Part shown: one piece after another, positions 3,104 to 33,917 of the stretch
Numbering within the stretch: position 1 is the stretch's first letter
Layout of the letters: the number at the start of each line of letters is the position of its first letter
From: Bacteroidota bacterium
Lineage (GTDB): Bacteria; Bacteroidota; Ignavibacteria; Ignavibacteriales; Melioribacteraceae
Assembly: GCA_021801605.1 (NCBI GenBank)
Contig: JAJYXU010000028.1
Coordinates: 1 to 48,551 of the forward strand
DNA: 48,551 bases
Direction: 5' to 3'
Program-made: the position numbers and the translations under genes
Notes under the pieces: generated by a model
Databases searched by the model: none
The model's input: the letters and a program-made list of their open reading frames with translations, nothing else
What the model was told of the DNA's origin: nothing

Positions 3104-4165
3104 TCATCTCAATGACTCAACCATTATCTCTTTTATGCTTATACTTCCTTTTCCAGTTATGCGCAAACCTACACTTCCGGGTTTAGGTTCATCATCGTGT
3201 CCGTGTACAATTATTTTATTATCAACATATCCGCGGAAATGTTTGCCATCGCTCACTACTTTTACCTCTATCCAACCCTTTTTAGCATAACGATCTTCTC
3301 CAAAAATATTTTCTTGTTCATTAGTTTTTCGCGCTAGAATAATCTTACTATTGCCAACTCTTAAAAAGTCATAGTTATTTTTATCTATGAAGTGATGGAT
3401 CAATTCCAGTTCACCATTAAAATCATCAATGTTAATTTTTGCTGTAACCTGAACGCTTTTAATTTTATTATCATAGACAAATACTACTTCTTTCTCCGGA
3501 TGAAGCATTAAAGCAGATTCGTCCCGATCATACATTGGGTCTAGCTTATCAGCGGAACCTTTAATCCATTTAAATTTTTCTTTTAAGACGGAAGCTGTAC
3601 CTTGCGCTGCAATCAGTTTCCATGAGCCGTCATTACTTTTGGTAAAAATTGAATCGGAAACTTGTTCTTCTTTTTGTCCATTTTTTGTTTCTGTTTTTTC
3701 AATTCTTGAAATATTACCTGTTCCTAATCCATGTCCGTAAACAAGTTTAGCCCCATATTCAGTAGTACGGAAAAGGAAATAAACTCCAACAAAAGCAATG
3801 AGTACAATAGGAACAACTATGGCTTTGTTCAATTTCTTAAGCCAAAAGCCGATTGATAAACGTACTATCGAATAAATAATAAAAAACCACATAGTAGTTT
3901 CTGCCCAATCAGCGTGATCGTTAACAGAAGAGATTACATTTGCGGGAATATTAAGTCCGTCAGAAGCGGAACGTCCTGTAAAAAATGTTATTATTATTAC
4001 TGTAGTTCCAATTGCGTATAAAACGAACGCCGATTTTTCCAGCCAATTAAATCTCTTTAAAAACAAACCTGAAACATCTAAAAGAACCGCCGCTATTAAA
4101 AGCACAATGGGAAAATGAACAATCATCGGATGAATGTTCGGTGCCCAATCTGGTATTAATTGCAT
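3104..4165 (-). CDS. DUF2231 membrane protein with C-terminal lectin-like domain
   Basis: 353 residues. The N-terminal half is a DUF2231-type membrane domain: NIHPMIVHFPIVLLIAAVLL at about 10-29, then further helices at about 43-63 (SAFVLYAIGTTVIIITFFTG), 90-108 and 113-132. HPMIVHFP is the family hallmark, with histidines suggestive of heme or metal contact. After a linker, residues about 175-353 form a predicted beta-sandwich (KSVQVTAKINIDDF, NYDFLRVGNSKIILAR, GWIEVKVVSDGKHFRGYVDN), like the concanavalin/DUF1080 lectin-like fold, presumably periplasmic. Function is unknown. It is the last gene of the long minus-strand metal-handling cluster, 47 bases after a small secreted protein. Confidence 0.7.
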   Translation of the reverse strand: MQLIPDWAPNIHPMIVHFPIVLLIAAVLLDVSGLFLKRFNWLEKSAFVLYAIGTTVIIITFFTGRSASDGLNIPANVISSVNDHADWAETTMWFFIIYSIVRLSIGFWLKKLNKAIVVPIVLIAFVGVYFLFRTTEYGAKLVYGHGLGTGNISRIEKTETKNGQKEEQVSDSIFTKSNDGSWKLIAAQGTASVLKEKFKWIKGSADKLDPMYDRDESALMLHPEKEVVFVYDNKIKSVQVTAKINIDDFNGELELIHHFIDKNNYDFLRVGNSKIILARKTNEQENIFGEDRYAKKGWIEVKVVSDGKHFRGYVDNKIIVHGHDDEPKPGSVGLRITGKGSISIKEIMVESLR

Positions 4166-4212
4166 AGTAACTCCTAATTAAATAATTATATAAATTGTTT
4201 ATAGTTCAAAAT

Positions 4213-4365
4213 TCATTCCCCGCTTATTGTGATAGTATCTCCGCCAACTATGGTTAACGTATCTTGTTTAGCAGCTTTTTCTTTCTTATGATCTTTTCCG
4301 CCGTGTGGGGAGATCACAGTTGCAAAGAGCATCAATAGAAGAATGCATGTAAATAAGTTTTTCAT
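4213..4365 (-). CDS. Small secreted His/Lys-rich protein
   Basis: 50 residues from the ATG at 4365, supported by TGGAG upstream; a longer reading to 4407 overlaps the preceding gene. A signal peptide (MKNLFTCILLLMLFATVIS) is followed by PHGGKDHKKEKAAKQD and TLTIVGGDTITISGE. The HGGKDHKK stretch could bind metal. It ends abruptly after a strand-like segment resembling the DTLTLTGKAIV start of the repeat units in the T9SS protein at 46516, so it may be a truncated relative (weak inference). No known family recognised. Confidence 0.5.
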   Translation of the reverse strand: MKNLFTCILLLMLFATVISPHGGKDHKKEKAAKQDTLTIVGGDTITISGE

Positions 4366-4381
4366 AAAAACTCCATTTTTA

Positions 4382-5266
4382 TTATTCACCAATGAGCCAA
4401 GTAACACCGGTGGAAACTAACAGACCGGGAGAAAATTTAGTTAATCCTACACCGCCGATAAGTGTAAGTGTTAGTTTTGAACTAAGCTGATGGTTAAGCC
4501 CCAGTGATAACTGCTGCGGTGCGGCGTAACCGGAAACAATTTCTGTGTAACCTTGATAGTAGAGTAGAAGCGATGAATTACCATCATTAAAATATTTTCC
4601 GAAACCAACTCCATAGGTAAAAGGATTTTTGTAAGTAATTCCGCTTGGATCGCCGATGTTTAGGTATCCCAAATCTGCAATTGTGAGATAGGAATCAAAT
4701 CCCTTGCGGAAAGTTACGGAGGCGCCATAATCAAATTTGCCGGTACCGATGTTTGTCATTCCGCTTGCTGTTGGAAATTTAACTTGATAATTGACCGATG
4801 CTGTAAAGCTATTTTCGTAGTTAGAATAAAATCGATAATTACCCGTCATAAAGATATCGCCTAGACCAATGCTTGAGTTCATAGAAGATGAAGAACCGAA
4901 CATATAAGGATTAAAATTGCTTCCATTGCTACCCATCATTCCACCATTGCCTGTATTGCCAACCATTCCGCCGGAGTTATTACCGGAAGAGTTACCACCA
5001 ATCGGTAGCATCATTCCACCGGACTGGCTGAGTGTATTGTTATTGCTAAAAATAATTGGTGTGGTAACATTCACGCTGAAATATTCTGATTGATAACGCA
5101 CTCCGCCATAAAAAGAAAAGAGTTTGCTGTAATTATTGTAATAATAATTTCCGCCGGAGTATTGAAGGCTGGTCGAAAGCGACCAGCCCTCTTGAGCAAA
5201 AGTTACTCCACTAAAAAGAATGACGGAAAAAATTAAAAGAAATATGCTTTTAATTTTTATCTGCAT
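4382..5266 (-). CDS. Outer-membrane beta-barrel (transporter-like), Met/Gly/Asn-rich loop
   Basis: 294 residues. A signal peptide ends near VTFAQ (residue 25). The rest alternates short amphipathic strands with aromatic ends (WSLSTSLQYSGGNYYYN, FSFYGGVRYQSEYFSVNV, SLLLYYQGYTEIVSG) and finishes STGVTWLIGE, as in outer-membrane barrels of the phenol-MetA/transporter type. Residues about 83-135 form a low-complexity loop rich in Met, Gly, Asn and Ser (GGMMLPIGG, GGMMGSNGSN). Methionine-rich exposed segments often bind Cu(I), which suits the neighbouring Met-rich protein and Cus operon (inference). It is 11 bases downstream of the Met-rich gene and probably co-transcribed. Confidence 0.65.
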   Translation of the reverse strand: MQIKIKSIFLLIFSVILFSGVTFAQEGWSLSTSLQYSGGNYYYNNYSKLFSFYGGVRYQSEYFSVNVTTPIIFSNNNTLSQSGGMMLPIGGNSSGNNSGGMVGNTGNGGMMGSNGSNFNPYMFGSSSSMNSSIGLGDIFMTGNYRFYSNYENSFTASVNYQVKFPTASGMTNIGTGKFDYGASVTFRKGFDSYLTIADLGYLNIGDPSGITYKNPFTYGVGFGKYFNDGNSSLLLYYQGYTEIVSGYAAPQQLSLGLNHQLSSKLTLTLIGGVGLTKFSPGLLVSTGVTWLIGE

Positions 5267-5276
5267 TTTATTATCC

Positions 5277-5762
5277 CTACTTCTTCATTGAGTTTGGAAG
5301 TTTCTTAATTTTGCCGAGCATGTCGTCATAATCTTTCATCATGTTTTTCATGTTGTCGGTCATGCCTTTCATGTGATCTTTCATTTCTGGATTGTCCATC
5401 ATTTTCTGATCACCCATCATGGTGTTTATTTGATCGAGCATGTTTTTCATGTTCTTCGACATATCGTTCATGTTTTGCATCATGCCGGTCATTTGAGAAC
5501 CCATTCCCATTTGATCTTTTTGGTTTTGCATCATGGAAAGCATCTTGCCGCTTTTATCCATGAGTTGATTCATTTGAGCCATCATGTTTTGCATGTCGCC
5601 CATTTTAGCTCCCATATTTTGCATGTTCTGCATTTGAGAGCCGGCTCCCATATTATTGCCGCTTCCGCTGCCATGTTGGTGTTGTGCAGATACAGTAATG
5701 CTGAAAACAAACATTACTGAAAGCATCATAGCTGTTTTAGCGAATGATTTTAATATATTCAT
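5277..5762 (-). CDS. Secreted methionine-rich protein, probable copper binder
   Basis: 161 residues from the ATG at 5762, chosen for its TAGGAGT ribosome site and because the signal peptide then sits at the start (SFAKTAMMLSVMFVFSITVS, cleavage near SAQ). By my count about 38 residues are Met, mostly in MQNM, MMQNM, KNMKNM and MKGM repeats, preceded by HQHGSGSG. The mature part is probably a long helix or coiled coil with Met stripes. Such proteins bind soft metals, mainly Cu(I)/Ag(I), in the periplasm (family knowledge, inferred here). No homologous named family is recognised. It lies between the PII-like gene and the outer-membrane barrel, whose loop is also Met-rich. The antisense His-rich reading is an artefact of ATG/CAT complementarity. 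Confidence 0.7.
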   Translation of the reverse strand: MNILKSFAKTAMMLSVMFVFSITVSAQHQHGSGSGNNMGAGSQMQNMQNMGAKMGDMQNMMAQMNQLMDKSGKMLSMMQNQKDQMGMGSQMTGMMQNMNDMSKNMKNMLDQINTMMGDQKMMDNPEMKDHMKGMTDNMKNMMKDYDDMLGKIKKLPNSMKK

Positions 5763-5836
5763 TGTGTTACTCCTATTTGTTATTGATTGATTATTAATTT
5801 CACCACTTGAGAAAATGGTGAGATAGTAGAATTCAC

Positions 5837-6130
5837 TCATTCATTTTCTCCTTTATATTTTTGATACATTTTTTTTAATCCCCCATCTTTGCTTTCTAAT
5901 GAGTAAACAAAAAAAGCATGATCTGCGGACTGACCGCATGACCCGATTTTGTGAACGACAGTCCGCACATTTTCAACTAAATGGTCGTCACATGATAATT
6001 CAAACCGAGATATTTGGGAGAGTGGTTTGAAATATTCTGTAACTTCTATTTCTTGAACTCCTAGAGTTTGTAATTCCTCAACTAACCAATGAACTCTAGT
6101 TGTGTTCACGTAAGCCGTTATCTTTTTCAT
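5837..6130 (-). CDS. PII-like (GlnB-fold) protein, metal-efflux associated type
   Basis: 97 residues. The opening MKKITAYVNTTRVHWLVEEL, then GVQEIEVTEYFKP, matches the first strand-helix-strand of PII/GlnB proteins. A shortened middle follows, then RFELSCDDHLVENVRTVVHK, the second strand-helix half. The T-loop with its uridylylated Tyr is missing, as in the PII-NG/DUF3240 branch often encoded next to CusA/CzcA-type RND pumps (family knowledge). Cys occurs in LSCDD and GSCGQS. It probably forms a cytoplasmic trimer sensing a metabolite or metal. It overlaps the YHS gene by four bases (ATGA), so the two are translationally coupled. Confidence 0.65.
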   Translation of the reverse strand: MKKITAYVNTTRVHWLVEELQTLGVQEIEVTEYFKPLSQISRFELSCDDHLVENVRTVVHKIGSCGQSADHAFFVYSLESKDGGLKKMYQKYKGENE

Positions 6131-6342
6131 TCCTTTTCATCCTCTCTAATATTTATTTCATTGCTTCCTTTTGAACTTTGAATATCATTGAAAGCTGCTA
6201 AGTATTTCTGAGGATCACTATCAAATGATTTTTTACAAGATGGCGCACAGAAATAATATGTCTCACCTTTGTAAAGTGTTTGTCCAGCGGCATCTTCTTT
6301 GACAAAGACCATTCCGCATACCGGGTCTTTTACAACTATCAT
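6127..6342 (-). CDS. YHS-domain metal-binding protein
   Basis: 71 residues. DPVCGMVFVKEDAAG, then YKGETYYFCAPSCKKSFDSD and PQKYLA, is a canonical YHS domain with Cys ligands in DPVCGM and FCAPSC. YHS domains occur in copper and heavy-metal ATPases and as free cytoplasmic proteins that bind Cu or Fe. Its ATG overlaps the stop of the ABC ATPase (TAATG) and carries a strong GGAGG site. Downstream it overlaps the PII-like gene by four bases. The order ATPase-YHS-PII suggests a metal-trafficking role with the ABC system. Confidence 0.85.
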   Translation of the reverse strand: MIVVKDPVCGMVFVKEDAAGQTLYKGETYYFCAPSCKKSFDSDPQKYLAAFNDIQSSKGSNEINIREDEKE

Positions 6343-7016
6343 TAGTTACCTCCGTCTAATTTTCCATCTTTTAGAAAGATGTTTTTATTTGCGTAAGCTT
6401 GATAATCTTTATTGTGCGTTACCAAAAGTATTGTTTTGCCTTCTTCAACAAGAAAACCAAAAATGTCCATGATATCTTCACTTGTCTTTGAATCCAGATT
6501 ACCAGTAGGTTCATCGGCAAGGATAATTAAAGGGTCGTTAATTAATGCACGTGCAATTGCAACCCTTTGTTGTTCGCCGCCGCTTAGTTCGTTAATTAGT
6601 CTTTTCGATTTATTTTTTAGGTGAACTTTATCTAGAGTAGCGTGAACAATTTCCCTTTTTTGTTGTCTGTTCAGATCACCAATAGCCAAAGGAACCATAA
6701 CATTTTCTTCAACAGTGAGATAAGGAATAAGGTGGAAAGCTTGAAAAACAAAACCTAAATACTCCCTGCGGAAGTCGGATAAATTATTTTGAGGAAGAGC
6801 ATAAATATTTAAATCATCAATCAGCACTTTCCCTTTTGTGGGAACAGAAAGACCACCTAACATCGTTAGAAGCGTGCTTTTCCCGGAACCGGATTCTCCC
6901 ATAATAGTTATGAATTGACCTCTATCTATTTCCAACGAAATATTATTCACCGCAGCAACGATCTCGGTTCCGGATTTGTATTCTTTACTTACATTTTCTA
7001 TTTCTATTAAACTCAT
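6342..7016 (-). CDS. ABC transporter ATP-binding protein, LolD/MacB type
   Basis: 224 residues, standard length. Walker A is GESGSGKST (about 39-47), the Q-loop is in [11 protein letters not shown], the signature is [15 protein letters not shown], Walker B is [14 protein letters not shown], and the switch His is in LLVTHN. The [16 protein letters not shown] and NLDS segments place it in the LolD/FtsE/MacB class, which couples to FtsX-type permeases instead of solute channels. It follows the FtsX-like permease by 12 bases. In P19-type iron loci such an ATPase acts with DUF2318 and FtsX proteins; a mechanotransmission or export role for metal or redox partners is inferred. Confidence 0.9.
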
Positions 7017-7028
7017 TTCTATGCCTCA

Positions 7029-8189
7029 TTAAATAAATCTAAATGCAACTGTTGGATCTAACCGTGATGCTTTTATTGCCGGGTAAATACATGCCGTTAT
7101 TCCTACGAACAAAGAGAGTAATACTGCAATTGGAAGTGTTGTAAAATTATAAGTAAAAGAAATTAGTCCATGCATGCTAAGGAAGGGCAAAACTAATTTT
7201 GCTACTGATACACCCACAATAAACCCAAGTAAGCCGGCTGTTAAACTTGCCGCAATAACTTCTGTTAAAATGATTTTGAGAATGTGTGATTTTCTATAAC
7301 CAACCGATTTAAATATTCCAATTTCTTTGGTTCTCTCGGTTACAGAAGCGTTTACATTTGCGAATACAATTAAAAAGCTTGTAACTAACATTACCAAAGA
7401 AATTCCAAGCGAGAACCGCTCAAAACTATGAACAGCCATCATTTTCGATTCAATGTTTTGCTTGATTGGTGTAACATTTGCCGTTGGCAAAACAGATGCA
7501 GTTTGAGAAACAATATCTTCGATGGGGCAGTCGTAACACAATGCTGCCATTTCGATGATGCTAAGTTTTGCGGGTTTGTGAAATAGAGTTCGAGCAGTCA
7601 AAATATCCATAAAAATAAGAGCATCGTCTTGCGAACCGGTATTTGAAAGAATACCGGATACGACAAACCGCTGCTCTTTGATTAGGAGCGTATCATTGAT
7701 TTTGATGTGCAAAGCTTCCGCACTGTTTGAACCCACTAAAAGATTATTCGGGGAAAGGGGAGATCTTCCATTGATTATCCACCACTTTTTAAGTTTTAGT
7801 TCATCCGAAAAACGAACTCCGGCAATCAGAACATTTTTACCCTTCAGATTAACAGTCTCAAAAAGTTTAGGTGAAATGATAGATAAGTTCTTTCGGTTCT
7901 TTATCGTATTTATTTTTTGTAAATCATTTTCTGAAAGCTGCGAATTATTGAATGAAACTTCTCCCAAACTCAATCCTCCATAATTTATCATCAGTTGATC
8001 GGATTTAGGAGTAATGATAATGTTAGCTCCAAACTCATCCAAATTGATTGCAACACTTTTATTTATATTTTCGCTTACGGTAATTAGTGTTACTACAGAA
8101 GCCACGGATAGAAATAATCCGACAATCAAAAAAATTGTTTTAGCTTTTCTTCTTCTAAGACTTTGAAATGCAATAGAATATATTTTCAT
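7029..8189 (-). CDS. FtsX/MacB-like ABC permease with periplasmic CxxC
   Basis: 386 residues from the ATG at 8189 (AGAAGAG upstream); a TTG at 8210 overlapping the previous gene is less likely. One membrane helix lies at about 15-40 (KTIFLIVGLFLSVASVVTLI), a periplasmic domain at about 45-255, and three helices at about 260-380 (SLVMLVTSFLIVFANV, LTAGLLGFIVGVSVAKLVL, PIAVLLSLFVGITACIYPAI). This is MacB/FtsX topology. The periplasmic part carries ALCYDCPIEDIV, a Cys-X2-Cys that could be redox-active or bind metal. Campylobacter-type P19 loci encode two such permeases; only one is present here. It follows the DUF2318 gene directly and precedes the ATPase. Confidence 0.85.
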   Translation of the reverse strand: MKIYSIAFQSLRRRKAKTIFLIVGLFLSVASVVTLITVSENINKSVAINLDEFGANIIITPKSDQLMINYGGLSLGEVSFNNSQLSENDLQKINTIKNRKNLSIISPKLFETVNLKGKNVLIAGVRFSDELKLKKWWIINGRSPLSPNNLLVGSNSAEALHIKINDTLLIKEQRFVVSGILSNTGSQDDALIFMDILTARTLFHKPAKLSIIEMAALCYDCPIEDIVSQTASVLPTANVTPIKQNIESKMMAVHSFERFSLGISLVMLVTSFLIVFANVNASVTERTKEIGIFKSVGYRKSHILKIILTEVIAASLTAGLLGFIVGVSVAKLVLPFLSMHGLISFTYNFTTLPIAVLLSLFVGITACIYPAIKASRLDPTVAFRFI

Positions 8190-8191
8190 CG

Positions 8192-8857
8192 TTAAACTCT
8201 TCTTTTCCAATTCTCTACAAGAGCTTTTTCAATTTGTATTTCATTGCCGACAACAATACTTGGCAATGGATCGGGCGGATATTTTTCGCAAGAACCGCTG
8301 ATAGCTTTGAGATCATTGAGATTCCATGTTGTTCCGCATGAATTACAAATTAAATTGCTTCCTTTTATATGGAATTCAGTTGAGTTACATGGTTCGCACA
8401 TACTAATAGCAGTTACAACTTTGCCCTCTTCGGTTAAGTAAGCTACTATTGGAAGATCATTTGTCTTACCGCCTGCAATTTGAAAGCGAACAAATTTTTT
8501 CTCTTTTACTAAATCTAAAGGGAGAATTATTTTGTTATCCTTTACAAAAGCTAAGGTAATTGAATGGTCTAATCGTTCCTCACTATAAACCACTTTATCT
8601 GAAACAACCGGTTGTTTGTTAATAACTGATAGCTCTTTGGATAGATCATTGTTTCTAAAAAATATTAACGCACCAACTATCACTATAGTAATCAATCCGA
8701 TATATATCCAGACCCTATTAGAGTTGGCTTTGCTATTTAGAACACGTTCTTTTTTGATCGTATTATTGCTTTTCACTTTATTACCGCAGCCGGGGCAATA
8801 AACCGCTGCTTCTATTAACTTTTGTCCACAGTTTGGACAGTAAGAAACATTTATCAT
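8192..8857 (-). CDS. Zinc-ribbon, single-TM, DUF2318 cysteine-rich protein
   Basis: 221 residues in three parts. An N-terminal zinc ribbon is CPNCGQKLIEAAVYCPGCG (residues 7-25). One membrane helix lies at about 50-67 (VWIYIGLITIVIVGALIFF). A C-terminal DUF2318 domain has MCEPCNSTEFHIKG, NLICNSCGTTWNL and SGSCEKYPPDPLP. DUF2318 proteins are thought to carry a metal or Fe-S site and accompany P19/FTR1 iron uptake loci (as near Cj1660). There the domain sits in a polytopic membrane protein; here it is anchored by one helix and fused to a cytoplasmic zinc ribbon. The stop is just before the permease start and the ribosome site is AAGGTGAA. The metal is undetermined. Confidence 0.8.
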   Translation of the reverse strand: MINVSYCPNCGQKLIEAAVYCPGCGNKVKSNNTIKKERVLNSKANSNRVWIYIGLITIVIVGALIFFRNNDLSKELSVINKQPVVSDKVVYSEERLDHSITLAFVKDNKIILPLDLVKEKKFVRFQIAGGKTNDLPIVAYLTEEGKVVTAISMCEPCNSTEFHIKGSNLICNSCGTTWNLNDLKAISGSCEKYPPDPLPSIVVGNEIQIEKALVENWKRRV

Positions 8858-8865
8858 AATTCACC

Positions 8866-9819
8866 TTATATTTTTTTACCGCCGTATTTACTATTAACCA
8901 GTTCAATAACCTGCTGAACTGTATATTTATTTGCAGAAATATTTTCATCAATAAATTTTTTAACCTCTTGAGCGCCCTTAGGATGAGAGCAATTGCAATC
9001 TTTTAGTTCGTCAATTCCGCATTTGCCGCAATTACACCTAAAAGCAGAAAAGATTGTAACTCTATCTGAAACACTTGCCGTTTTGTCTAGATCACTTTTC
9101 TTATTCTCAAGATTAATAGCGGGAATTGTTATTTGGTTAGTCTCAAATATTTTTGATTTATCAACTTGTTTGAATTCTCCTGCAAATTGAGATTTTAAGA
9201 ATCCATATTTACTTGCAAGAGCAAACACTATGTTTTCTTTTTTCTGATTTCTTTCAACATATTCTCTTATGAATTGTCTTTCCTCAATTGCGCGTCCACA
9301 TTTACAAACTTCTAAAGATTCTTCATTGCAAGTACCACATGAACAGACAAACTTTGATGCGATATTAAATACTTCGGCTTCCACTAGAGGATTAGCGCTT
9401 TTTGTTTCTAAAGGATATTGACTATCAACGTCTTTCTTAAATAAAGAATTAAGCGCTACTACCGCTAGCAAAGAAACCGCTATTACTCCAATTGCAATTA
9501 ATAACGGCTTCATTCCCAGAGTTTTGTTTGCTATCTCTCTTTTACTTTTTTGAGACTGGTGGATAGTGTTTTTCTTGGTGTTCGTATTATTTTTCTTGTG
9601 ATCATTTGTTTGGGTTAAAGCTCTTCGATCATTACTTGGTTCTCCGTTAACTAACGGCTTCCCGCAAGCAATACAAAAATTATTCGATGGTAAATTTTGT
9701 ACGCCGCAAGAAGGACAAATTGATTTGTCAATCCCAATTTGATTTTTCAGTTCAGCACCACAATTGATACAAAACTTATTTTCTGTAGAATTATCTACAC
9801 CGCACTTATTGCATCGCAT
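8866..9819 (-). CDS. Double zinc-ribbon membrane protein with two CxC/CcmH-like modules
   Basis: 317 residues from the ATG at 9819, chosen because GAGGT falls six bases upstream. Two zinc ribbons open the protein (CNKCGVDNSTENKFCINCG and CPSCGVQNLPSNNFCIACG). A polar linker and one membrane helix at about 118-137 (KPLLIAIGVIAVSLLAVVAL) follow. Two related external modules come next: FVCSCGTCNEESLEVCKCG with IREYVERNQKKENIVFALASKYG (about 170-215), and FRCNCGKCGIDELKDCNCS with FIDENISANKYTVQQVIELV (about 262-313). Each has CxCGxC plus CxC and a helix pair resembling the CcmH/NrfF fold. This suggests thiol or metal handling outside the membrane. It is the first gene of the DUF2318 cluster. No characterised homologue recognised. 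Confidence 0.7.
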   Translation of the reverse strand: MRCNKCGVDNSTENKFCINCGAELKNQIGIDKSICPSCGVQNLPSNNFCIACGKPLVNGEPSNDRRALTQTNDHKKNNTNTKKNTIHQSQKSKREIANKTLGMKPLLIAIGVIAVSLLAVVALNSLFKKDVDSQYPLETKSANPLVEAEVFNIASKFVCSCGTCNEESLEVCKCGRAIEERQFIREYVERNQKKENIVFALASKYGFLKSQFAGEFKQVDKSKIFETNQITIPAINLENKKSDLDKTASVSDRVTIFSAFRCNCGKCGIDELKDCNCSHPKGAQEVKKFIDENISANKYTVQQVIELVNSKYGGKKI

Positions 9820-9841
9820 AATCAACCTCATGTATTATAAC

Positions 9842-9872
9842 GAATGCTGTCAACACTTAGCTGACAGCATTC
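9842..9872. promoter_or_regulatory. Perfect 11-bp inverted repeat between cus and DUF2318 operons
   Basis: GAATGCTGTCA, nine bases, TGACAGCATTC. It lies 22 bases upstream of the zinc-ribbon gene start and just downstream of another hairpin. Without a T-run on the minus strand it reads better as an operator dyad or an mRNA-stabilising hairpin than as a terminator. A TATAAT lies right after it on the minus strand (about 9833-9838), which would fit an operator over a promoter. Confidence 0.5.
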
Positions 9873-9885
9873 ATCTATATATAAA

Positions 9886-9910
9886 GTAGAGCAGATCATT
9901 TCTGCTCTAC
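9886..9910 (-). terminator. Hairpin terminator of the cus operon
   Basis: GTAGAGCAGA, five bases, TCTGCTCTAC, a perfect 10-bp stem overlapping the stop codon of the HMBD protein gene. On the minus strand it is followed by TTTATATATAG, a T-rich tail. It probably ends most cus transcripts, separating the RND operon from the DUF2318 cluster. Confidence 0.6.
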
Positions 9911-10402
9911 GGTATTTTTAACCTTGAAATTATGTTTGAGCAAATCCTCTTTTGCTTTTTCAAGCGTTACTTCTTTTAATTTCATTCCGCATAGCGGGCA
10001 TTCGCCTGCTTTATCAGAAATTACATTAAAGTCCATCTGATCCTGGAAGACTTTGCCATCCTTATTTTTATCAATTGATTGGAGGTCGATTTCACCTTCA
10101 TGGACAATTGAATTCATTTCATGATCCATGTTCTTCATATCATGTTTCATTTCATTCATCGTTTTAGAGGAGTCGGGTTTTGACATGCAGTCCATTTTCA
10201 TTTTATGATCCATATTTTTCATATTCATTGTGGAATCAGCATTTTGCATTTTATCATGCATCTTGGAATAATGGTTTTTCATCTTATTATGTTGATGTTT
10301 GGTTGTATCGGGCTTCTCTTGAGCCGATACCAAAGTGAATGAAATGAGCAGCATCAATAATGATGCTGCAAAGAATGTTGTTTTTCCAATTTGGTTTTTC
10401 AT
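9896..10402 (-). CDS. Secreted Met/His-rich protein with EF-hand-like and heavy-metal-binding motif
   Basis: 168 residues. A signal peptide ends near LVSAQ (about 28). The middle (about 30-100) is rich in His, Met, Asp and Lys (KHQHNKMKNHYSKMHDKMQ, MKNMDHKMKMDCM). The C-terminal 70 residues read EGEIDLQSIDKNKDGKVFQD, then QMDFNVISDKAGECPLCGMK with LKEV. DKNKDGKVF looks like an EF-hand loop and CPLCGMKLKEV is the heavy-metal-binding domain seen in CusB-type adaptors. Almost the same module ends the CusB protein encoded upstream (13804-15525), so this gene probably arose by duplication of that end. A periplasmic copper or silver chaperone for the pump, analogous to CusF, is inferred. Confidence 0.75.
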   Translation of the reverse strand: MKNQIGKTTFFAASLLMLLISFTLVSAQEKPDTTKHQHNKMKNHYSKMHDKMQNADSTMNMKNMDHKMKMDCMSKPDSSKTMNEMKHDMKNMDHEMNSIVHEGEIDLQSIDKNKDGKVFQDQMDFNVISDKAGECPLCGMKLKEVTLEKAKEDLLKHNFKVKNTVEQK

Positions 10403-10451: not shown

Positions 10452-13400
10452 TTATTCTAAAACCAGACCGTTTTTCTTTGCTTCTTTTTTCATTTCCCAA
10501 GAACGCCAGAGGTAATAGATAACAGGGTAAACTGCCAATTCCATTAGAACAGAAGTTACAACACCACCAAGCATAGGCGCAGCAATACGTTTCATTACAT
10601 CTGCACCTGTTCCGTGACTCCACATGATTGGAGCTAAACCTGCAAGAATTACTGCTGCAGTCATTATTTTCGGTCGTACTCGTTTTACAGCGCCATGATG
10701 GATAGCATCTTTCAATCCTTTCAATCCGGTTAGCAGTCCCTTTTCTTTCCATTCTTTTAAGGCGACATCTAGATAGAGTAACATAACTACGCCGGTTTCC
10801 GCATCTAATCCTGCAAGTGCAATTATACCAACCCAAACAGCGATACTTATATTGTATCCGAGCAGATAGAGTAACCAAAAAGTACCGACAAGAGAGAATG
10901 GAACGGCAAGAAATACGATTCCAACTTTTACTAAAGATTTAGTATTTAGATAAATGATTACAAAGATGATGAACAGTGTCATCGGAATTACATAAAACAA
11001 TCTTTCTTGTGCACGCACCATATATTCGTATTCGCCGCTCCATGCAATGTTATAACCTGTGGGCAGTTTAATTTTTTCTGATACAATTTTTTGCGCATTT
11101 TTAACGTATGTGCCAACGTCAATATTTTTAATATCAACATAGACCCAGGCGTTAGGGCGTGTATCTTCACTTCTAACAACCATAGGACCTTTGCGCGGTG
11201 TAATAGTTGCAAGTTGACCGATTGGAACTTGCTCACCAATTGGCGTAGGCACTAACACTTTCTTCATCGCTTCGATATTATCTCTAAGTTCTCTGCTGTA
11301 ACGAAGGTTAACAGTGTATCTTTCTAATCCTTCAACAGTAGTTGTAACAGACATGCCACCCATAGCGGTTTGAATTACATTTTCAACGTCCTCTATTGTT
11401 AATCCGTAACGGGCTGCTTCTTTTCTATTGATTTCAATATCGAGATAATTTCCTCCAACAGATCTTTCAGCAAACGCGCTCAAAGTTCCAGGAACCTTTC
11501 TCATTACCGATTCGACTTCTTTTCCAATATCCTGCAGCGTTAATAAATCAGGCCCGGAAATTTTTATTCCAACGGGAGTTTTGATTCCAGTGCTAAGCAT
11601 GTCCGTTCTTGTTTTGATTGGCATCGTCCAGGCATTAGTAACGCCCGGAAACTGAATAGCTCTGTCCATCTCATCAATTAATTTTTGAACAGTCATACCG
11701 GGGCGCCACTCATTCTCGGGCTTCAACATTATTGTAGTTTCGACCATGTCAAGTCCTGCCGGATCAGTAGCAGTTTCTGCGCGTCCTATTTTTCCGAATA
11801 CGTGATGTACCTCGGGAAATTGTTTAATGATTTTATCAGTCTGTTGCAGTATCTCTTTTGCTTTAGTAATTGACATACCGGGCATAGTGGTAGGCATATA
11901 AAGTAAATCGCCTTCATAAAGCGGCGGCATAAATTCGGAACCAATACTTTTGAAAGGAATTATTGTTAACCCAAGAATAATCAGCGCCGTAACAAGAACA
12001 GCTTTGTTGTGCTTAATTACAAAATCAACAACAGGATGATAAATTTTAATAAGGAATCTGTTGATGGGATTCTTTTCTTCGGGTAAAATTTTACCTTTAA
12101 TCCAGTATCCCATCAAAATAGGAACAAGAGTAACTGAAAGAATTGCGGCTGCTGCCATCGAATATGTTTTTGTGAATGCCAGCGGTCTAAATAATCTTCC
12201 TTCCTGCGCTTCGAGTGTGAATACCGGGATGAAGGAAACCGTGATCACTAACAGTGAATAGAAAAGAGAAGGTCCAACCTCCTTTGAAGCGTCAATAATC
12301 AACTGCCATCTATCTTTTCTTTCTTCAGGTGGTTTTAGGGCTTCGTGCTCTATATGCTTGTGCGCGTTTTCAACCATAATTATTGCCGCATCCACCATTG
12401 CACCAATTGCAATTGCAATTCCGCTCAAAGACATTATGTTAGCATTAATACCCTGCCAGCGCATAACGATAAATGCCATAAGTATTGCTGTAGGCAGCGT
12501 AATGATCGCCACAAAAGCGCTTCGAACATGGAGCAAAAATAAAATACATATTAACGCTACAAATAAAATTTCTTCTACGAGTTTTTCTTTTAAAGTTTCG
12601 ATTGCCCGTTCGATTAAACCGGAACGGTCATATACAGATTCAATTTTTACATCTGAAGGAAGTCCGGCTTTTAATTCTTCTATTTTTTGTTTTACATTTT
12701 CAATTACCTTAAGTGCATTCTGACCGTACCTCATAACAATAATTCCACCGACAACTTCTCCTTCACCATTAGCTTCAACCAACCCTCTTCTCATTAAAGG
12801 ACCAAGAGTAACATCGGCAACATCTTTCAAATAAACGGGTGTGTTAGTTTTTTTATCTACCATCAAAGGAATAATTTTAACATCATCAATCGTTTTAATG
12901 TATCCAAGTCCGCGCACCATAAATTCCATCTCACCCATTTCAATTACTTCGCCGCCAACGTCGTTGTTCGATTTCTTAATTGCCATATCAACCATATTCA
13001 ATGGAATGTTGTAAGCAAGTAATTTTGCCGGGTCAACGGTAACTTGATATTGTTTAACATACCCTCCAATGCTTGCAACTTCTGAAACTCCATCTACAGA
13101 TGACAGAGCATATTTTAGATACCAATCTTGAATGGATCGAAGTTCCTGAAGCGATCTTGTATCTGAAGTAAGTTTATATTCGTAAACCCAGCCAACACCT
13201 GTGGCATCCGGTCCTAATGTAGGCACAATATTATTTGGAAGTCGTTTCTGTGCATAGTTCAAATACTCAAGCACTCTGCTTCTTGCCCAATAAATATCTG
13301 TTCCGTCTTCAAAAATTACATAAACTAAGGAATAACCAAAGAAGGAATATCCGCGTACTACTTTTGAACCGGGTACCGAAACCATTGCTGTTGTTAAAGG

Positions 13401-13601
13401 ATATGTAACCTGATCTTCTACTATTCTTGGCGATTGACCCGAGTATTCTGTATAAATAATTACTTGTACATCGCTCAAATCCGGTATCGCATCTACCGGT
13501 GTACTTAGCATTGAATAGATTCCGACACCGATTAAAAATAAAGTCGCAAGGATAACCATGAATTTATTTCTAATGGAAAACTCTATTATTTTTTCTAACA
13601 T
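10452..13601 (-). CDS. cusA: Heavy-metal efflux RND inner-membrane pump, CusA/CzcA family
   Basis: 1049 residues, normal length. The start MLEKIIEFSIRNKFMVILAT and TPVDAIPDLSDVQVIIYTEY are family hallmarks, as is the TM4 segment LSGIAIAIGAMVDAAIIMVE with its proton-relay Asp. Twelve membrane helices and two large periplasmic loops are present. Met-containing periplasmic segments such as QTAMGGMSV, and the company of Met-rich proteins, favour Cu(I)/Ag(I) over Zn/Co/Cd, but the metal is not proven. It would pump metal from periplasm or cytoplasm through the CusB and TolC-like partners. TTGGAGAA precedes the ATG. A 108-bp MITE-like element sits in the 202-bp gap between it and cusB; spacing elsewhere in the operon is about 20-50 bases. 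Confidence 0.95.
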   Translation of the reverse strand: MLEKIIEFSIRNKFMVILATLFLIGVGIYSMLSTPVDAIPDLSDVQVIIYTEYSGQSPRIVEDQVTYPLTTAMVSVPGSKVVRGYSFFGYSLVYVIFEDGTDIYWARSRVLEYLNYAQKRLPNNIVPTLGPDATGVGWVYEYKLTSDTRSLQELRSIQDWYLKYALSSVDGVSEVASIGGYVKQYQVTVDPAKLLAYNIPLNMVDMAIKKSNNDVGGEVIEMGEMEFMVRGLGYIKTIDDVKIIPLMVDKKTNTPVYLKDVADVTLGPLMRRGLVEANGEGEVVGGIIVMRYGQNALKVIENVKQKIEELKAGLPSDVKIESVYDRSGLIERAIETLKEKLVEEILFVALICILFLLHVRSAFVAIITLPTAILMAFIVMRWQGINANIMSLSGIAIAIGAMVDAAIIMVENAHKHIEHEALKPPEERKDRWQLIIDASKEVGPSLFYSLLVITVSFIPVFTLEAQEGRLFRPLAFTKTYSMAAAAILSVTLVPILMGYWIKGKILPEEKNPINRFLIKIYHPVVDFVIKHNKAVLVTALIILGLTIIPFKSIGSEFMPPLYEGDLLYMPTTMPGMSITKAKEILQQTDKIIKQFPEVHHVFGKIGRAETATDPAGLDMVETTIMLKPENEWRPGMTVQKLIDEMDRAIQFPGVTNAWTMPIKTRTDMLSTGIKTPVGIKISGPDLLTLQDIGKEVESVMRKVPGTLSAFAERSVGGNYLDIEINRKEAARYGLTIEDVENVIQTAMGGMSVTTTVEGLERYTVNLRYSRELRDNIEAMKKVLVPTPIGEQVPIGQLATITPRKGPMVVRSEDTRPNAWVYVDIKNIDVGTYVKNAQKIVSEKIKLPTGYNIAWSGEYEYMVRAQERLFYVIPMTLFIIFVIIYLNTKSLVKVGIVFLAVPFSLVGTFWLLYLLGYNISIAVWVGIIALAGLDAETGVVMLLYLDVALKEWKEKGLLTGLKGLKDAIHHGAVKRVRPKIMTAAVILAGLAPIMWSHGTGADVMKRIAAPMLGGVVTSVLMELAVYPVIYYLWRSWEMKKEAKKNGLVLE

Positions 13602-13803: not shown

Positions 13804-15525
13804 CTATTTTACTTTAAAACCATGTTTAATCAGATTTTCTTTCGCTTCTTTTATTGATGATTCTTTCAGAGTCATCCCACATATCGGGCATTTGCCGGGT
13901 TTATCTGAAATAACATTCCAATCCATCTGATCTTGAAAAACTTTTCCGTCTTTATTTTCATCTATCGCCTGCAAGTCTATCACTCCTTCATGTACAATCG
14001 CGCTCTTTTGGTGGTCTATGTTTTTCATGTCTTGATCTTCCATATTTTTCGTGTCGGATTTTTTAGATTTTATTTTTTCGTTCTTCTTTGGTTCATCTTT
14101 TCCGTTCATATTCATTTTGCTATGGTCTTCGATTGGTTTTTGTTCATCCATAGGTTTGCTCATATCCATTCCTTCGTGTCCTTTCATCTGCTGGATTGCC
14201 GCTTTAAGATTGCTTTCCGAATCGATTAGGAATTGTGAAGAGACAACGATTTTTTCACCTTCTTTAATACCTTCAAGCACTTGAACCAATCCGTCGGAGG
14301 CAACGCCTAACTTAACATCTCTCGGGTCGAAGTAACCACCGCCAAGAGACATTACGGCAATTGTCCTTTCACCGGAACGTATAATTGCCTGATCCGGCAC
14401 TACAACGGCATCCACAGAGATTGGCGAAACAAGTTTTACGGTTGCAAACATTCCCGGTTTGAAATTGTAATCTGAAGTGTTCTTTACTTCGGTTCTTACT
14501 TTAATCGTTTTAGTTTCTTCGTTTAAGTAGGGATAAATGTAAGTTAATGTTCCTTTGTAAGTTTTGCCGGGCAGATAGGAAAGCTCCAAGTCAACTTTTT
14601 GACCGAGTCTAATCCAGGGTAAATCGACTTGATAAACATCTGCCATTACCCAAACATCTGAAAGATCGGCAACTTTATACAATTCCATTCCAGCCATAAT
14701 TTGCTGCCCTTTGAATACCATTTTTTCTACAACCGTTCCGTTTACAGGTGAATAAATTGTAAGCGTCTTCTTCGGCGCATTATTTTTTACAATCTCATCT
14801 ATGTCTTTTTCGGAAATGTCCCAATACAATAATCTTCTCTTAGCGCTGCTCACTAATTCTTGAGCGCCGTTTTTAACGTCATCAGAACTTTTAGAAACTT
14901 TCTTTAAGTAACGGATTGCTTGCAGGTATTCTTCTTGCGTACTTACAAGTTCCGGGCTGTAAATTTCGAAGAGCGGCTGCCCTTTGCTTATGTATTTGCC
15001 GGTGTAATCAACAAACAATTTTTCTACCCAGCCCATAATTTTTGTTGTAACGGTAGTAACTTTTGTTTCGTCGTAATCAACTTTTCCTGTCGTCCTAACT
15101 ATATTATTAAGTTTTTGTCTTTTTACTGTTTCTATTCTTACACCAATATTTTGAACTGTAACCGGGTCAATCTTTATACCTTCAACATTCTCGTCACCCT
15201 CATAAACGGGCACTAGATCCATACCGCAATCCGGCGCTTTGCCGGGTTTATCCGAAGTGAACCAGGGATGCATCGGGTCCTGGTAGTAAGCAATTTTCTT
15301 TTCACCGCTTCCGCCTTTTTGCTCTGCATAGACCGCAACGTAATCCATTCCGTCCGGGGCTTTCTTTGGCGTTGGCGATGTTTGTGCCGGATCCATTGGA
15401 TTACGATAGTAAAGGACTTTTCTTTCTTTCCCATTTTCAGAAGGTGAAGTTGATTTGAATACAAGCCAGCCGATTCCTAACCCAACTACAAGAAATAAGA
15501 TAGCAGTGATAATTATTTTTTTCAT
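13804..15525 (-). CDS. cusB: Efflux RND periplasmic adaptor, CusB type, with three heavy-metal-binding motifs
   Basis: 573 residues. The N-terminal membrane anchor is IIITAILFLVVGLGIGWLVF. Two heavy-metal-binding motifs follow: YYRNPMDPAQTSPTPKKAPD with GMDYVAVY (about 39-67), where the Cys is missing, and YYQDPMHPWFTSDKPGKAPD with CGMDLVPVYE (about 79-109). The adaptor core is PVTVQNIGVRIETVKRQKL, WVEKLFVDYTGKYISKGQPL, a coiled-coil hairpin and beta-barrel (about 120-450). A charged Met-rich linker (MKGHEGMDMSKPMDEQ) leads to a C-terminal module with IDENKDGKVFQDQMDWNV and CPICGMTLKES, shared with the secreted protein at 9896. It links CusA to the outer-membrane channel and hands metal to the pump. 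GGAG precedes the ATG. Confidence 0.92.
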   Translation of the reverse strand: MKKIIITAILFLVVGLGIGWLVFKSTSPSENGKERKVLYYRNPMDPAQTSPTPKKAPDGMDYVAVYAEQKGGSGEKKIAYYQDPMHPWFTSDKPGKAPDCGMDLVPVYEGDENVEGIKIDPVTVQNIGVRIETVKRQKLNNIVRTTGKVDYDETKVTTVTTKIMGWVEKLFVDYTGKYISKGQPLFEIYSPELVSTQEEYLQAIRYLKKVSKSSDDVKNGAQELVSSAKRRLLYWDISEKDIDEIVKNNAPKKTLTIYSPVNGTVVEKMVFKGQQIMAGMELYKVADLSDVWVMADVYQVDLPWIRLGQKVDLELSYLPGKTYKGTLTYIYPYLNEETKTIKVRTEVKNTSDYNFKPGMFATVKLVSPISVDAVVVPDQAIIRSGERTIAVMSLGGGYFDPRDVKLGVASDGLVQVLEGIKEGEKIVVSSQFLIDSESNLKAAIQQMKGHEGMDMSKPMDEQKPIEDHSKMNMNGKDEPKKNEKIKSKKSDTKNMEDQDMKNIDHQKSAIVHEGVIDLQAIDENKDGKVFQDQMDWNVISDKPGKCPICGMTLKESSIKEAKENLIKHGFKVK

Positions 15526-15545: not shown

Positions 15546-16826
15546 CTATTTTATTTTATTATTAATTTCATCTATAGGAAGACCAACGGCTTGCTCAAGC
15601 TGAGCTTTTGCCTGCTGAAGATTCATTTCACTCATATAAAAATCTAACTTTGCCATAAAAAGCATCCGATAAGCATCTATCAACATTAAGAATTCCGTCT
15701 TGCCGGTTCTATATGCGGCAATTGTAGATTGAAGTGTTTGATCGGCTTGGGGAATTACTGTATTCTTATTTAGGTTGTATAAGTTTCTGTTCGTTTCCAA
15801 TTTAACGACTGCGTTTTGCACTTCGTATGAGATCATATTCTTCATCGAATTGAATTGCTCTTCTGCAGTTTTGATGTTCAATTCATTTTCTTCAACCTTT
15901 CCGCTGTATTTATCCTTCGACCAAAATGCAATTGGAATATTTACGCCAATCATAGCCGACCAGAAATCGTCTTTTGTATCTGCCATATTCTTATACATTA
16001 GTCGAACCATAAAATCGGGATAGTATTCAAGCTCTGATGCTTTCAACTCGCTTCTATACATTTCAATGTTGTAATTCATTCCTTTCAATTCCGGTCTGTT
16101 TGAAACAGCTACCGGAAGTAATTGCTGAAAAGAAAAACTTTGTATCTCCTCGGTAATACCGGGAACGTTGCCCAACTGTTGATAAGGCGGTCTGCTAAGA
16201 ATTGTATTGATCATGGTTTCAATATCTTTCTTGGACTTTAGTAAGTTTATCCCTTCATTGACAAGAGAAGACAATTCTGTTTGTGCGCGTATTATATCCG
16301 TTTGCTTTCCCATTCCAACTTGATATTGTTTTGACGCTATCTCCACAAACTGTTTCAGTAATTCCTGGTTCTCATTGTTCACTTCAATTTTTCTCTGAAC
16401 AAGATAAAGTTCATAATAAGCGTTCTTCAGATCTCTAATAACATTGTTTCTAAGCGCATTAAATTGCTCTTGATACATCTTGGCATTGTTTGCAGCGGAT
16501 AAACCCATCGCGTTCAATTTTCCGGGGAATGGTATCATTTGTTGAACGAAGTAATCGGTCTCCATATTGTTTTTAAGAGGATTTGGAAAGGATTGAATTG
16601 GAAGTTGAAATAATTCTATTCCAACTTGAGGTGCATCCCAAGCGGTTACTTGTTTCACTTTTGTCTGAGAACTTAAAAATTGATTTTGTGCGGCTTTTAA
16701 TTGAGGATTGTTCAGAAGCGCTTCCTTAATTAAATCTTCTAATCGGATAGTCGAAGATTCTTGAGGATAAACCGCAAAACTTAATCCGAAAAATATTAAT
16801 AGCGCCGTTAGATTTTTTTTAAGCAT
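15546..16826 (-). CDS. TolC-family outer-membrane efflux channel, CusC-like
   Basis: 426 residues. A signal peptide ends near AVYPQ (about 22). The two repeated outer-membrane efflux halves are seen as EALLNNPQLKAAQNQFLSSQ (about 36-55) with KQYQVGMGKQTDIIRAQTEL, and PVAVSNRPELKGMNYNIEMY with AAYRTGKTEFLMLIDAYRML. Length is typical. It forms the trimeric outer-membrane duct for CusAB. TTAGGAGAAAA lies before the ATG, and its start overlaps by a few bases the end of a short relic reading frame of another cusA. The cusB gene follows after 20 bases. Confidence 0.9.
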   Translation of the reverse strand: MLKKNLTALLIFFGLSFAVYPQESSTIRLEDLIKEALLNNPQLKAAQNQFLSSQTKVKQVTAWDAPQVGIELFQLPIQSFPNPLKNNMETDYFVQQMIPFPGKLNAMGLSAANNAKMYQEQFNALRNNVIRDLKNAYYELYLVQRKIEVNNENQELLKQFVEIASKQYQVGMGKQTDIIRAQTELSSLVNEGINLLKSKKDIETMINTILSRPPYQQLGNVPGITEEIQSFSFQQLLPVAVSNRPELKGMNYNIEMYRSELKASELEYYPDFMVRLMYKNMADTKDDFWSAMIGVNIPIAFWSKDKYSGKVEENELNIKTAEEQFNSMKNMISYEVQNAVVKLETNRNLYNLNKNTVIPQADQTLQSTIAAYRTGKTEFLMLIDAYRMLFMAKLDFYMSEMNLQQAKAQLEQAVGLPIDEINNKIK

Positions 16827-32216: not shown

Positions 32217-32561
32217 ATGAAAGAATCGACAAATATATTCAAGGCGTTATCGGATAAGAACCGTATGCGTATCTTGAAAATGCTTCAAATAAAACCTCTC
32301 TGTGTTTGCGAAATAACCGATATTCTCCAACTTGCCGCTTCTACCGTATCTCAACATCTTAGTATATTAAAGAAAGAAGGATTTATACTTGAAGATAGAG
32401 AAGGCAAGTGGGTGAACTACTTAATAAACCAGCGACCGGGTGATCAAAGAATTTCTGCAATTCTCAGCTCATTGGATTTTTGGATCGGTGATAATCAATT
32501 GATTGATACTGATAAACAGAAAGTTAAAGTTGTAGATCGTTATAAAGTTTGTGGGTTATAA
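32217..32561 (+). CDS. arsR: ArsR arsenic-responsive repressor
   Basis: 114 residues. The winged helix is FKALSDKNRMRILKMLQIKP, then LCVCEITDILQLAASTVSQH and LSILKKEGFILEDREGKW. The Cys pair CVC in the helix after KPL is the As(III) site of the ELCVCDL class. It represses the downstream arsC-acr3 genes and is released by arsenite. Two related dyads, before this gene and before the first arsC, are probable operators. No clear ribosome site except AAATTATG. Confidence 0.9.
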   Translation: MKESTNIFKALSDKNRMRILKMLQIKPLCVCEITDILQLAASTVSQHLSILKKEGFILEDREGKWVNYLINQRPGDQRISAILSSLDFWIGDNQLIDTDKQKVKVVDRYKVCGL

Positions 32562-32577
32562 TTTTTTTTGCTTAAAT

Positions 32578-32597
32578 AATTCGGTAAATAGCGAATT
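32578..32597. promoter_or_regulatory. ArsR operator 2 (before first arsC)
   Basis: AATTCG-gtaaatag-CGAATT, the same spacing as the dyad before arsR and the same core TTCGGTWAA...CGAA. It lies 20 bases before the first arsC start, suggesting an internal ArsR-controlled promoter in the operon. Confidence 0.55.
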
Positions 32598-32616
32598 AGA
32601 AGAAAGGAAATATAAA

Positions 32617-33072
32617 ATGTTGAATGAAATGAAATCCCGCTCAGCGGGAAATAAAAGAATCTTGATACTCTGCACCGGAAATAGTTGCCGCAGTCAAATG
32701 GCTGAAGGATTTATGAAGTCCTTTGATTCGGAATTGGAAGTATATTCTGCCGGAACAAATCCATCCAAGCAAGTTCATCCAAAAGCAATTCAGGTTATGA
32801 ATGAAGTTGGAATTGATCTTTCAAAGAACTTTCCGAAAATGATTGATCAATTTCTAAATAATTCCTTTGATTATGTAATTACCGTCTGTGATAACGCAAA
32901 GGAAACTTGTCCGGTATTTATAGGAAAGGTTAGAAAGCAATTGCACATTGGATTTGAAGATCCGGCTGATGCAACCGGAACAGAGGAAGAAATTCTTTCC
33001 GAGTTTAGACGAATCAGAGATGAAATCAAAAATGACTTTTACAAATTCTATAAAGAAAATTTAAGGAGTTAA
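32617..33072 (+). CDS. arsC: Arsenate reductase, thioredoxin-coupled (first copy)
   Basis: 151 residues from the ATG at 32617, supported by GAAAGGAAA upstream; the longer frame from 32551 overlaps arsR. The phosphatase-like P-loop is CTGNSCRSQMAEGF, and the two further redox Cys are in VITVCDNAKETCPVF, as in S. aureus/B. subtilis ArsC. It reduces arsenate to arsenite, which Acr3 exports. The P-loop has an extra Cys (NSCRS) compared with the second copy (NSARS). Confidence 0.9.
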   Translation: MLNEMKSRSAGNKRILILCTGNSCRSQMAEGFMKSFDSELEVYSAGTNPSKQVHPKAIQVMNEVGIDLSKNFPKMIDQFLNNSFDYVITVCDNAKETCPVFIGKVRKQLHIGFEDPADATGTEEEILSEFRRIRDEIKNDFYKFYKENLRS

Positions 33073-33159
33073 GAAAATGCTAAACATTAAGGTTTTAGAG
33101 ATACCCTTAACTCATTGGTTAATGAATGCACTTGCAGAAATAAAATAAATAGAGGTCAT

Positions 33160-33606: not shown

Positions 33607-33608
33607 AA

Positions 33609-33917
33609 ATGGTGTTTATAGAGGTTCAATTTTTTAATGGTTGTCCAAACTCCGAAGAGATGATACTAAGGGTAAAGGCAGCAATGGAGGAATTTGATGA
33701 ACGAATTAGATACAAAGAAATACTTGTAGAAACTCAAGAAGAAGCTGAGCGGGTAAAATTTCGCGGTTCACCGACTGTATTGATTAACGGAATCGACTTA
33801 GAAAATATGCCGGCACCTAGTGAAGCAAACCTCGCATGCCGTTATTATAAAAATGGATTACCGACCGTTATCCGGATAAAAGAATTCATTACAGACCAAT
33901 TAAAGAAAGAGGAATAA
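33609..33917 (+). CDS. Thioredoxin-like protein of ars operon
   Basis: 102 residues. It starts [20 protein letters not shown], a strand followed by a Cys-containing turn and helix, then [15 protein letters not shown], the cis-Pro loop typical of thioredoxin folds, and [12 protein letters not shown]. Only one Cys is in the active turn (GCPNS), so it is a monothiol type; another Cys is in NLACRYY. It lies between arsC and acr3, two bases after arsC, with AAGGAG. It may relay electrons to the thioredoxin-coupled arsenate reductases or bind As(III); this is inference. Confidence 0.65.

Follow-up and report, generated by a model that had tools for sequence, protein, structure and literature searches.

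The closest described relatives of the genes considered here belong to FetMP-FetABCDEF, known from Campylobacter jejuni and, in a plasmid form, from E. coli. In the portion of PMC10783030 that deals with this system, what FetABCDEF contributes to iron uptake is treated as open, the substrate of its ATP-binding cassette (ABC) transporter as unclear and the biochemistry of its DUF protein as unknown, and a relay of reducing power is proposed by the authors. According to a passage of PMC6083913, DUF2318 genes are found almost always in clusters of the P19/FTR1 type. A different arrangement is present on contig JAJYXU010000028.1 of a member of the Ignavibacteria (assembly GCA_021801605.1), of which positions 1 to 48,551 were analyzed (the window). 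Its genes A to F form one operon-like run at 5837-9831 on the minus strand, in which neighboring genes overlap slightly or are separated by short gaps (Table 1). Genes A to E are an FTR1/P19-free sister of FetABCD and not a decayed P19 system. Functionally, they may represent an ATP-driven extracytoplasmic metal and thiol redox module that serves copper in this lineage, a reading to which a probability of about 0.45 is given.

The likeness to Fet comprises the DUF2318 protein (gene B), the YHS protein (gene E), the FtsX-type permease (gene C) and the LolD-like ATPase (gene D), and the permeases of the two systems are sister groups. E. coli FetA carries PF10080 and YHS on one chain, so that two domains encoded apart here, as genes B and E, are linked by fusion there. 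The window differs from Fet in having one permease instead of two (FetB and FetC), in encoding YHS as a separate gene, and in a gene B product with one transmembrane (TM) helix and a zinc ribbon where FetA is polytopic; FTR1 (FetM), P19 (FetP) and thioredoxin (FetE/FetF) are not alongside; a CcmH-like protein is present instead of the last, and the genes of an HMBD protein and of Cus lie immediately upstream. Gene B matches PF10080, named 'FtrD-like' at present, with an E-value of 3.1e-23 and 82.3 bits against a cut-off of 26.3, and this family is represented by a single copy in the 3.24-Mb genome. A DUF2318 query from Bacillota reached E. coli FetA only at an E-value of 0.2, FetA being confirmed as PF10080 by Pfam, and tblastn of the window's DUF2318 domain against plasmids gave no match.

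No match to FTR1, P19 or thioredoxin was detected in the ten proteins scanned from 3104 to 10402, and E. coli FetM and FetP had no match in the 79 related loci described below (tblastn, E-value 0.01). P19 (PF10634) was identified in none of 51 genomes, namely the window's own and 50 that carry loci from the set of 79, and the same search returned a match in Haloferax as a control; FTR1 (PF03239) was absent from 46 of these genomes and present in five. Taken together with the supported permease clade of its own, the lack of FTR1 and P19 in the loci and of P19 in the genomes shows a separate branch of the core and no local loss. The sequence-only reading of the window had assigned gene B to DUF2318, had proposed kinship with the auxiliary genes of Fet/P19 systems and had seen no FTR1, P19 or thioredoxin, and all three statements hold; its description of the locus as half of a P19 system in reduced form does not, and adjacent FTR1 and P19 genes that would imply a simple loss here were found in no relative examined. 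It had also asked for both genes elsewhere in the genome, where P19 is absent and one protein that combines an FTR1 domain with a cytochrome c domain at its N-terminus is encoded on another contig (L134:387-2357, C56). That protein, together with the kinship to Fet, would suit an auxiliary role in iron uptake in which the permease is encoded elsewhere, be it this protein or an unrelated importer. Such a role is improbable, considering the rarity of FTR1 among the core-bearing genomes, its absence from all 79 loci and the lack of P19, and the FTR1 gene of this genome adjoins, by eye, an ArsR-like regulator and a metal P-ATPase. A widespread sister lacking the iron permease and P19 implies that the function of the core is separable from iron import.

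For the permeases, a tree of 53 rows placed 38 cluster permeases in one clade (support 99/98) that is sister to E. coli FetB and FetC (97/92) and apart from MacB, LolC, LolE and the window genome's own paralogues. Ten rows came from the window genome, nine of them distinct (the open reading frames (ORFs) of L120 and L123 are identical over the tree columns), and three further ORFs of the own-paralogue loci were left out, the permease profile not having matched them. With this profile FetC and FetB scored 128 and 124 bits, modestly more than the 104 bits of the best own paralogue. Among 86 permeases longer than 330 aa from 69 loci, exactly one per locus carries CxxCP[IV] (69/69), a regularity that is new here; the second permeases of two-permease loci, 17 in number, all lack it, and at this position E. 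coli FetB reads YCTAYV, with a single cysteine, by eye. In domain make-up, permease C and ATPase D resemble the type VII ABC systems MacB, LolCDE and FtsEX. Gene D matches PF00005 at 2e-35 and is LolD-like at 226 bits, below the cut-off of 308 for the LolD equivalog TIGR02211. Gene C is set apart by its separate clade and by CxxCP, in a tree that held MacB, LolC and LolE and not the FtsX of FtsEX. The MacB_PCD and FtsX domains, together with the nearby CusC/TolC-like channel and metal genes, would be expected if C and D simply exported a small molecule or peptide in the manner of MacB, under envelope or metal stress and with A and B as regulators or sensors. This is quite unlikely, as the permeases do not group with MacB, and both their strict pairing with B and the invariant CxxCP suggest a task in redox or metal handling.

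The extent of this pairing is apparent from 84,980 species genomes, searched with an alignment of gene B. Of 91 matches the 80 best were retained, which gave 79 loci. Because the query came from this subfamily, these do not sample DUF2318 at random. They fall under ten phylum names (Ignavibacteriota, Bacteroidota, Calditrichota, Kryptoniota, Deferribacterota, Thermodesulfobacteriota, Myxococcota, Bacillota, Chloroflexota and Actinomycetota), taken from records of mostly metagenome assemblies, some with possibly outdated titles. As a class of exceptions, they qualify the statement quoted above from PMC6083913. A permease adjoins gene B in 73 of them, 72 by script plus L088, where B is unlabeled and the permease follows; it is missing from L071, L074 (with only 1.3 kb to judge), L076, L099 and L112, and L037 ends 75 bp past B. 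The ATPase is present in 67 loci. Seven of the other 12 are L088, with a truncated ATPase under the score limit of the script, and the six permease-less or edge cases just named; L034, L064, L068 and L082 end in or just past the permease, and L084 completes the list. The recurrence of an identical gene set and order in other genera and phyla is more than chance.

Within the phylum, PF10080 was found in 16 of 247 sampled genomes, with 17 matches. FtsX and LolD genes adjoin it in nine cases, the window and L018-L025, and all of these except L018 have CusA in the stretch read. The remaining eight (L026-L033) have no such permease beside B, and L026 adjoins Cus genes. These eight and L071, L074 and L076 are zinc-ribbon DUF2318 proteins without a neighboring permease, several of them without the first cysteine; some lie, by eye, beside PIG-L-like (BshB1-like) or PurK-like genes, and a second function is possible. 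In several Bacillota and Actinomycetota loci a Gly/Cys-rich (GCCGG) membrane protein is encoded between B and the permease (L092:10646-11215, L095:10604-11107, L106:10486-10992, L110:10640-11083); it has no Pfam match (L092 scanned) and could be a metal-binding partner.

For gene B, the extracytoplasmic domain is predicted to adopt a Rieske fold with cysteine-only ligand positions, which has not been proposed for DUF2318 in any paper found by a literature search, most subscription journals lying outside the reach of that search; the prediction is presented as new. An AlphaFold2 model built with 68 relatives had a mean predicted local distance difference test score (pLDDT) of 90.5. Foldseek placed Rieske ferredoxins and oxygenases at the top (best E-value 1.8e-4, four matches at or below 0.001), and when the same chains were compared again with VIA-align, Rieske ferredoxin 1vm9 gave a Z of 9.8 and a root-mean-square deviation of 2.5 over 104 residues, the top rows being Rieske-titled; a family absent from these fold tables is not thereby excluded. 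When the profile was compared with that of 16 Rieske domains from relatives, the alignment was colinear: C154 paired with the first Cys of the Rieske motif and C171/C174 with its CxxH. Gene B is thus predicted to resemble Rieske proteins in its fold and colinear ligand loops, and it differs in having CxxC and CxxC where they have CxH and CxxH, and in an extra conserved Cys (C190) after CxxC-x13-CxxC. C157, C171, C174 and C190 are kept in 68 of 68 rows and C154 in 65; the other three (L071, L074, L076) have Ser, all at loci where no permease was seen. L099 and L112 have no permease, yet keep C154.

The topology of gene B is probably N-in (positive-inside count 65/68). A twin-arginine signal is absent from the window protein and a loose pattern occurs in 5 of 68 rows, and this rarity makes insertion of an Fe-S cluster into B before export doubtful; E. 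coli FetA has RRNAL ahead of its last TM helix, by eye. A PDB sequence search with the DUF2318 profile gave nothing convincing, the best match (E-value 0.024) being a designed protein. At residues 35-40 of gene B lies a cytosolic juxtamembrane motif, K[KRH]x[KR][VFIY][LMTVI], which recurs, from Ignavibacteria to Bacillota, in 50 of 68 DUF2318 proteins (mean of 0.8 and maximum of 4 in shuffled sequences). Canonical Rieske-type proteins with CTH, recognized by eye, are encoded near the core in two Calditrichota loci (L045:12563-13006, L056:15717-16223).

Gene A matches the CcmH family PF03918 with an E-value of 1.3e-7 and 31.4 bits against a cut-off of 25. Its model (pLDDT 81.3) aligned with CcmH of P. 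aeruginosa (2hl7) at Z 8.9 and of E. coli (2kw0) at Z 7.6, the next row having 3.9, and in Foldseek alone the CcmH matches had weak E-values of 0.11 and 0.62. The structural match spans the first module, whose cysteines are invariant in 36 rows; those of both modules are invariant in 8 rows. The motif of CcmH is of the LRCxxC type, which gene A lacks, having CSCGTC...CKC and CNCGKC...CNC instead. In addition to these two CxCGxC...CxC modules, the zinc ribbons and the absence of CcmF from the window distinguish gene A from the CcmH of cytochrome c maturation, which it resembles by Pfam and by the model matches. If the module were an accessory of that pathway, A and B would keep apocytochrome thiols reduced together with CcmF, and Cus would lie near because copper poisons the pathway. 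The CcmH-like modules would fit, as would CcmF within 8 kb in 17 of the 79 loci (7 of 8 in the Calditrichota group) and in 41 of the 51 genomes. It is nonetheless an unlikely explanation, given that ten of the 51 core-bearing genomes lack CcmF_C, so that CcmF is not required for the core and was rejected as a universal partner; both CcmF genes of the window genome are on other contigs, and the Fet core of E. coli is accompanied by thioredoxin-like proteins, not by CcmF.

The preferred reading, a redox module serving copper, draws on the gene neighborhood. CusA lies within 10.5 kb (edge fragments counted) in 29 of the 79 loci, including 25 of 36 in the group of Ignavibacteria, Bacteroidota, Kryptonium and L061, and three of eight among Calditrichota and L046. 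When only loci with at least 6.5 kb upstream were assessed, these proportions became 21/26 and 3/6, respectively; random placement, computed from copy numbers and genome sizes, would give 0.42 of 30 genomes. Three copper-coordinating methionines of CusA (M573, M623 and M672 in E. coli) are kept in 24 of 24 sequences, those of E. coli, the window and 22 loci, and an HMBD protein is encoded upstream of the core in 19 of the 79 loci. A CopA query matched 17 ORFs in 16 loci, and P-ATPases with both CPC and MxxSS were limited to L036, L045, L081, L099, L106 and L108, two of which also have CusA; the CPC-type enzymes of L081, L099, L106 and L108 lie near cores without Cus. The P-ATPases of L043, L051, L052, L056, L063 and L065, lacking CPC, and the ORFs of L041, L047 (two), L058 and L100, which are partial or without the motif, were dropped as copper evidence. 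Pairs of a BlaI/CopY-like repressor and an M56 protein in seven Bacillota and Actinomycetota loci were likewise dropped as a copper signal, since the repressor's Pfam family (penicillinase repressor) has no specific tie to copper. Beyond the Ignavibacteria group the partners are polyferredoxins (eight loci), CcdA (eight), TlpA (two), a DsbC-like protein (L072) and CcmH (L112). Copper partners, then, mark one lineage strongly and are sporadic in the others, and thiol or electron-transfer partners occur in several branches. The copper or redox direction taken in the sequence-only reading gains support from CusA near most assessable relatives, the CcmH-like modules and the Rieske-like predicted fold.

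Two smaller genes complete the run. Gene E is a YHS protein (PF04945, 2.6e-15). For gene F the Pfam match alone is insignificant (0.13), and its homologue L019:14264-14605 (5e-11) itself matches PF00543 at 1.6e-13. PII-NG proteins are described in a passage of PMC7726332 as a class that clusters with metal RND pumps, a setting that gene F and its relatives fit. On another contig of the same genome (L133; C96, 1-16000) there is a second metal island, with Czc-like CBA, PII-like, MgtC-like and CDF-like proteins and, 4 kb on, one of the two CcmF genes of the genome (CcmF by Pfam, the remainder except RND by eye).

With regard to mechanism, type VII ABC systems are mechanotransmitting. For FtsEX, ATPase-driven motion of an extracytoplasmic domain is described in part of PMC11491553. 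In a similar manner, ATP hydrolysis by D would move the extracytoplasmic domain of C and not a substrate across the membrane, and this motion might bring the CxxC of C and the cysteine site of B together for an exchange of electrons, thiols or metal, with thiols or electrons from A keeping the sites reduced. Copper could then be held or reduced to Cu(I), with the YHS and HMBD proteins as carriers, and passed on, either to CusCBA, which would export it, or into the making of copper or heme enzymes. The NosDFY machinery of copper-site assembly, an ABC system that works for copper delivery outside the membrane, offers an analogy only. Since Cus exports Cu(I) and Ag(I), as stated in a section of PMC3017539, a step from Cu(II) to Cu(I) would be of use, as would handing the metal over to the pump. 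Within Fet, this core would work for P19/FTR1, and a Fet-like core beside a copper pump suggests that its basic job is the handling of metal and electrons outside the cell membrane. By a bolder and doubtful extension, the whole DUF2318-FtsX-LolD core, FetABCD included, would be a general ATP-driven periplasmic metal-redox machine with FTR1/P19 as merely one client, the cysteine-ligated Rieske-fold domain and the moved CxxC reducing and handing over copper or keeping metal sites reduced; its target would be the copper site of P19 in Fet, and its partner here CusCBA. The predicted redox fold and the invariant CxxCP site name residues to mutate.

Several points weigh against a copper-serving relative of Fet. 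The copper or redox chemistry of the module is one that we infer, and its link to copper is strong in the Ignavibacteria lineage only: CusA accompanies one of eight loci from Desulfobacterota and Myxococcota and none of 27 from Bacillota, Chloroflexota and Actinomycetota. As the loci are related by descent, with L053-L055 being near-copies, the 21 of 26 are not independent events, and the linkage to Cus may derive from a shared metal-resistance island. YHS comes after the ATPase in only 8 of the 79 loci. Fet was represented in the permease tree by E. coli FetB and FetC only, FetC being a long branch, and the ATPase tree was left unused on account of its long branches and the unplaced FetD. Finally, the match between B and the Rieske profile is barely there (3.7% probability, pairwise E-value 0.011), so that the Rieske assignment rests on structure.

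In its evolutionary history, gene B appears to be mosaic. Between the window and L035, from another family of the order, DNA identity rises from 51-61% to 82-99% inside gene B near 8400, and the high identity persists into the ATPase gene as far as 6701, the end of the printed alignment. Proteins C to H are 77-93% identical to those of L035, with 46% for A and 60% for B. Only the window's own genome among 12 congeneric ones has PF10080, which is thus an accessory and patchy trait in the genus. The jump in identity and this patchiness make lateral exchange of the segment likely, and the cysteine half of B and genes C to H seem to have moved between families as a block.

Table 1. Coordinates of the gene run and its upstream neighbors in the window
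Feature	Position	Strand	Description	Basis
Gene A	8866..9831	-	Two zinc ribbons, one TM helix, two CcmH-like modules	PF13240, PF12773, PF03918
Gene B	8192..8857	-	Zinc ribbon, one TM helix, DUF2318/FtrD-like domain with predicted Rieske fold	PF10080
Gene B cysteine site	~8288-8398	-	CxxC-x13-CxxC-x15-C	Derived from residue numbers
Gene B first CxxC	approx. 8392..8398	-	Codons of residues 154-157, beginning just above
Gene C	7029..8210	-	MacB/FtsX-type permease, CYDCPI in extracytoplasmic domain	PF12704 + PF02687
Gene D	6342..7016	-	LolD-like ABC ATPase	PF00005
Gene E	6127..6342	-	YHS-domain protein, counterpart of the YHS domain of FetA	PF04945
Gene F	5837..6130	-	Divergent short PII-like protein	Homologues with PF00543
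HMBD protein	9896..10402	-	Heavy-metal-binding protein	PF19335, 5.9e-8
CusA	10452..13601	-	CusA-type RND pump, three CusA methionines kept	Homologues
CusB	13804..15525	-	CusB-like membrane fusion protein, HMBD-like C-terminus	Matches cluster relatives; tail resembles HMBD protein
CusC	15546..16826	-	CusC/TolC-like outer-membrane protein	Position and relatives
Intergenic signals	9842..9910	-	Inverted repeat 9842-9852/9862-9872 and terminator-like stem-loop 9886-9910, between HMBD gene and gene A

As to the gene run itself, the LolD-like ATPase, YHS protein, PII-like protein and CYDC permease named in the sequence-only reading were recovered by Pfam (gene F via homologues), as were the duplicated CxCGxC/CxC modules of the first gene, which are CcmH-like. 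The reading had placed the run at 5837-9819, where 5837 is right and 9819 coincides with an internal ATG, the second of gene A, whose ORF starts at 9831; it had let both small genes overlap the ATPase gene, which is true of YHS (1 nt), whereas the PII-like gene overlaps YHS by 4 nt and not the ATPase gene. The listed start of gene C is a TTG at 8210 that overlaps gene B; the ATG at 8189, which gives no overlap, is the likely start. Between the HMBD gene and gene A, the 11-bp inverted repeat is perfect and, with the terminator-like stem-loop, suggests that the core may be transcribed separately from Cus; terminator-like sites in general numbered five against 3.4 in shuffles, a weak signal. A sigma-54 pattern was not found near Cus, and two occur elsewhere against 0.76 expected. 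Further along the window, at 32551-34957, two ArsC-like proteins and an ACR3-like transporter, recognized by eye from translations, form a probable arsenic island.

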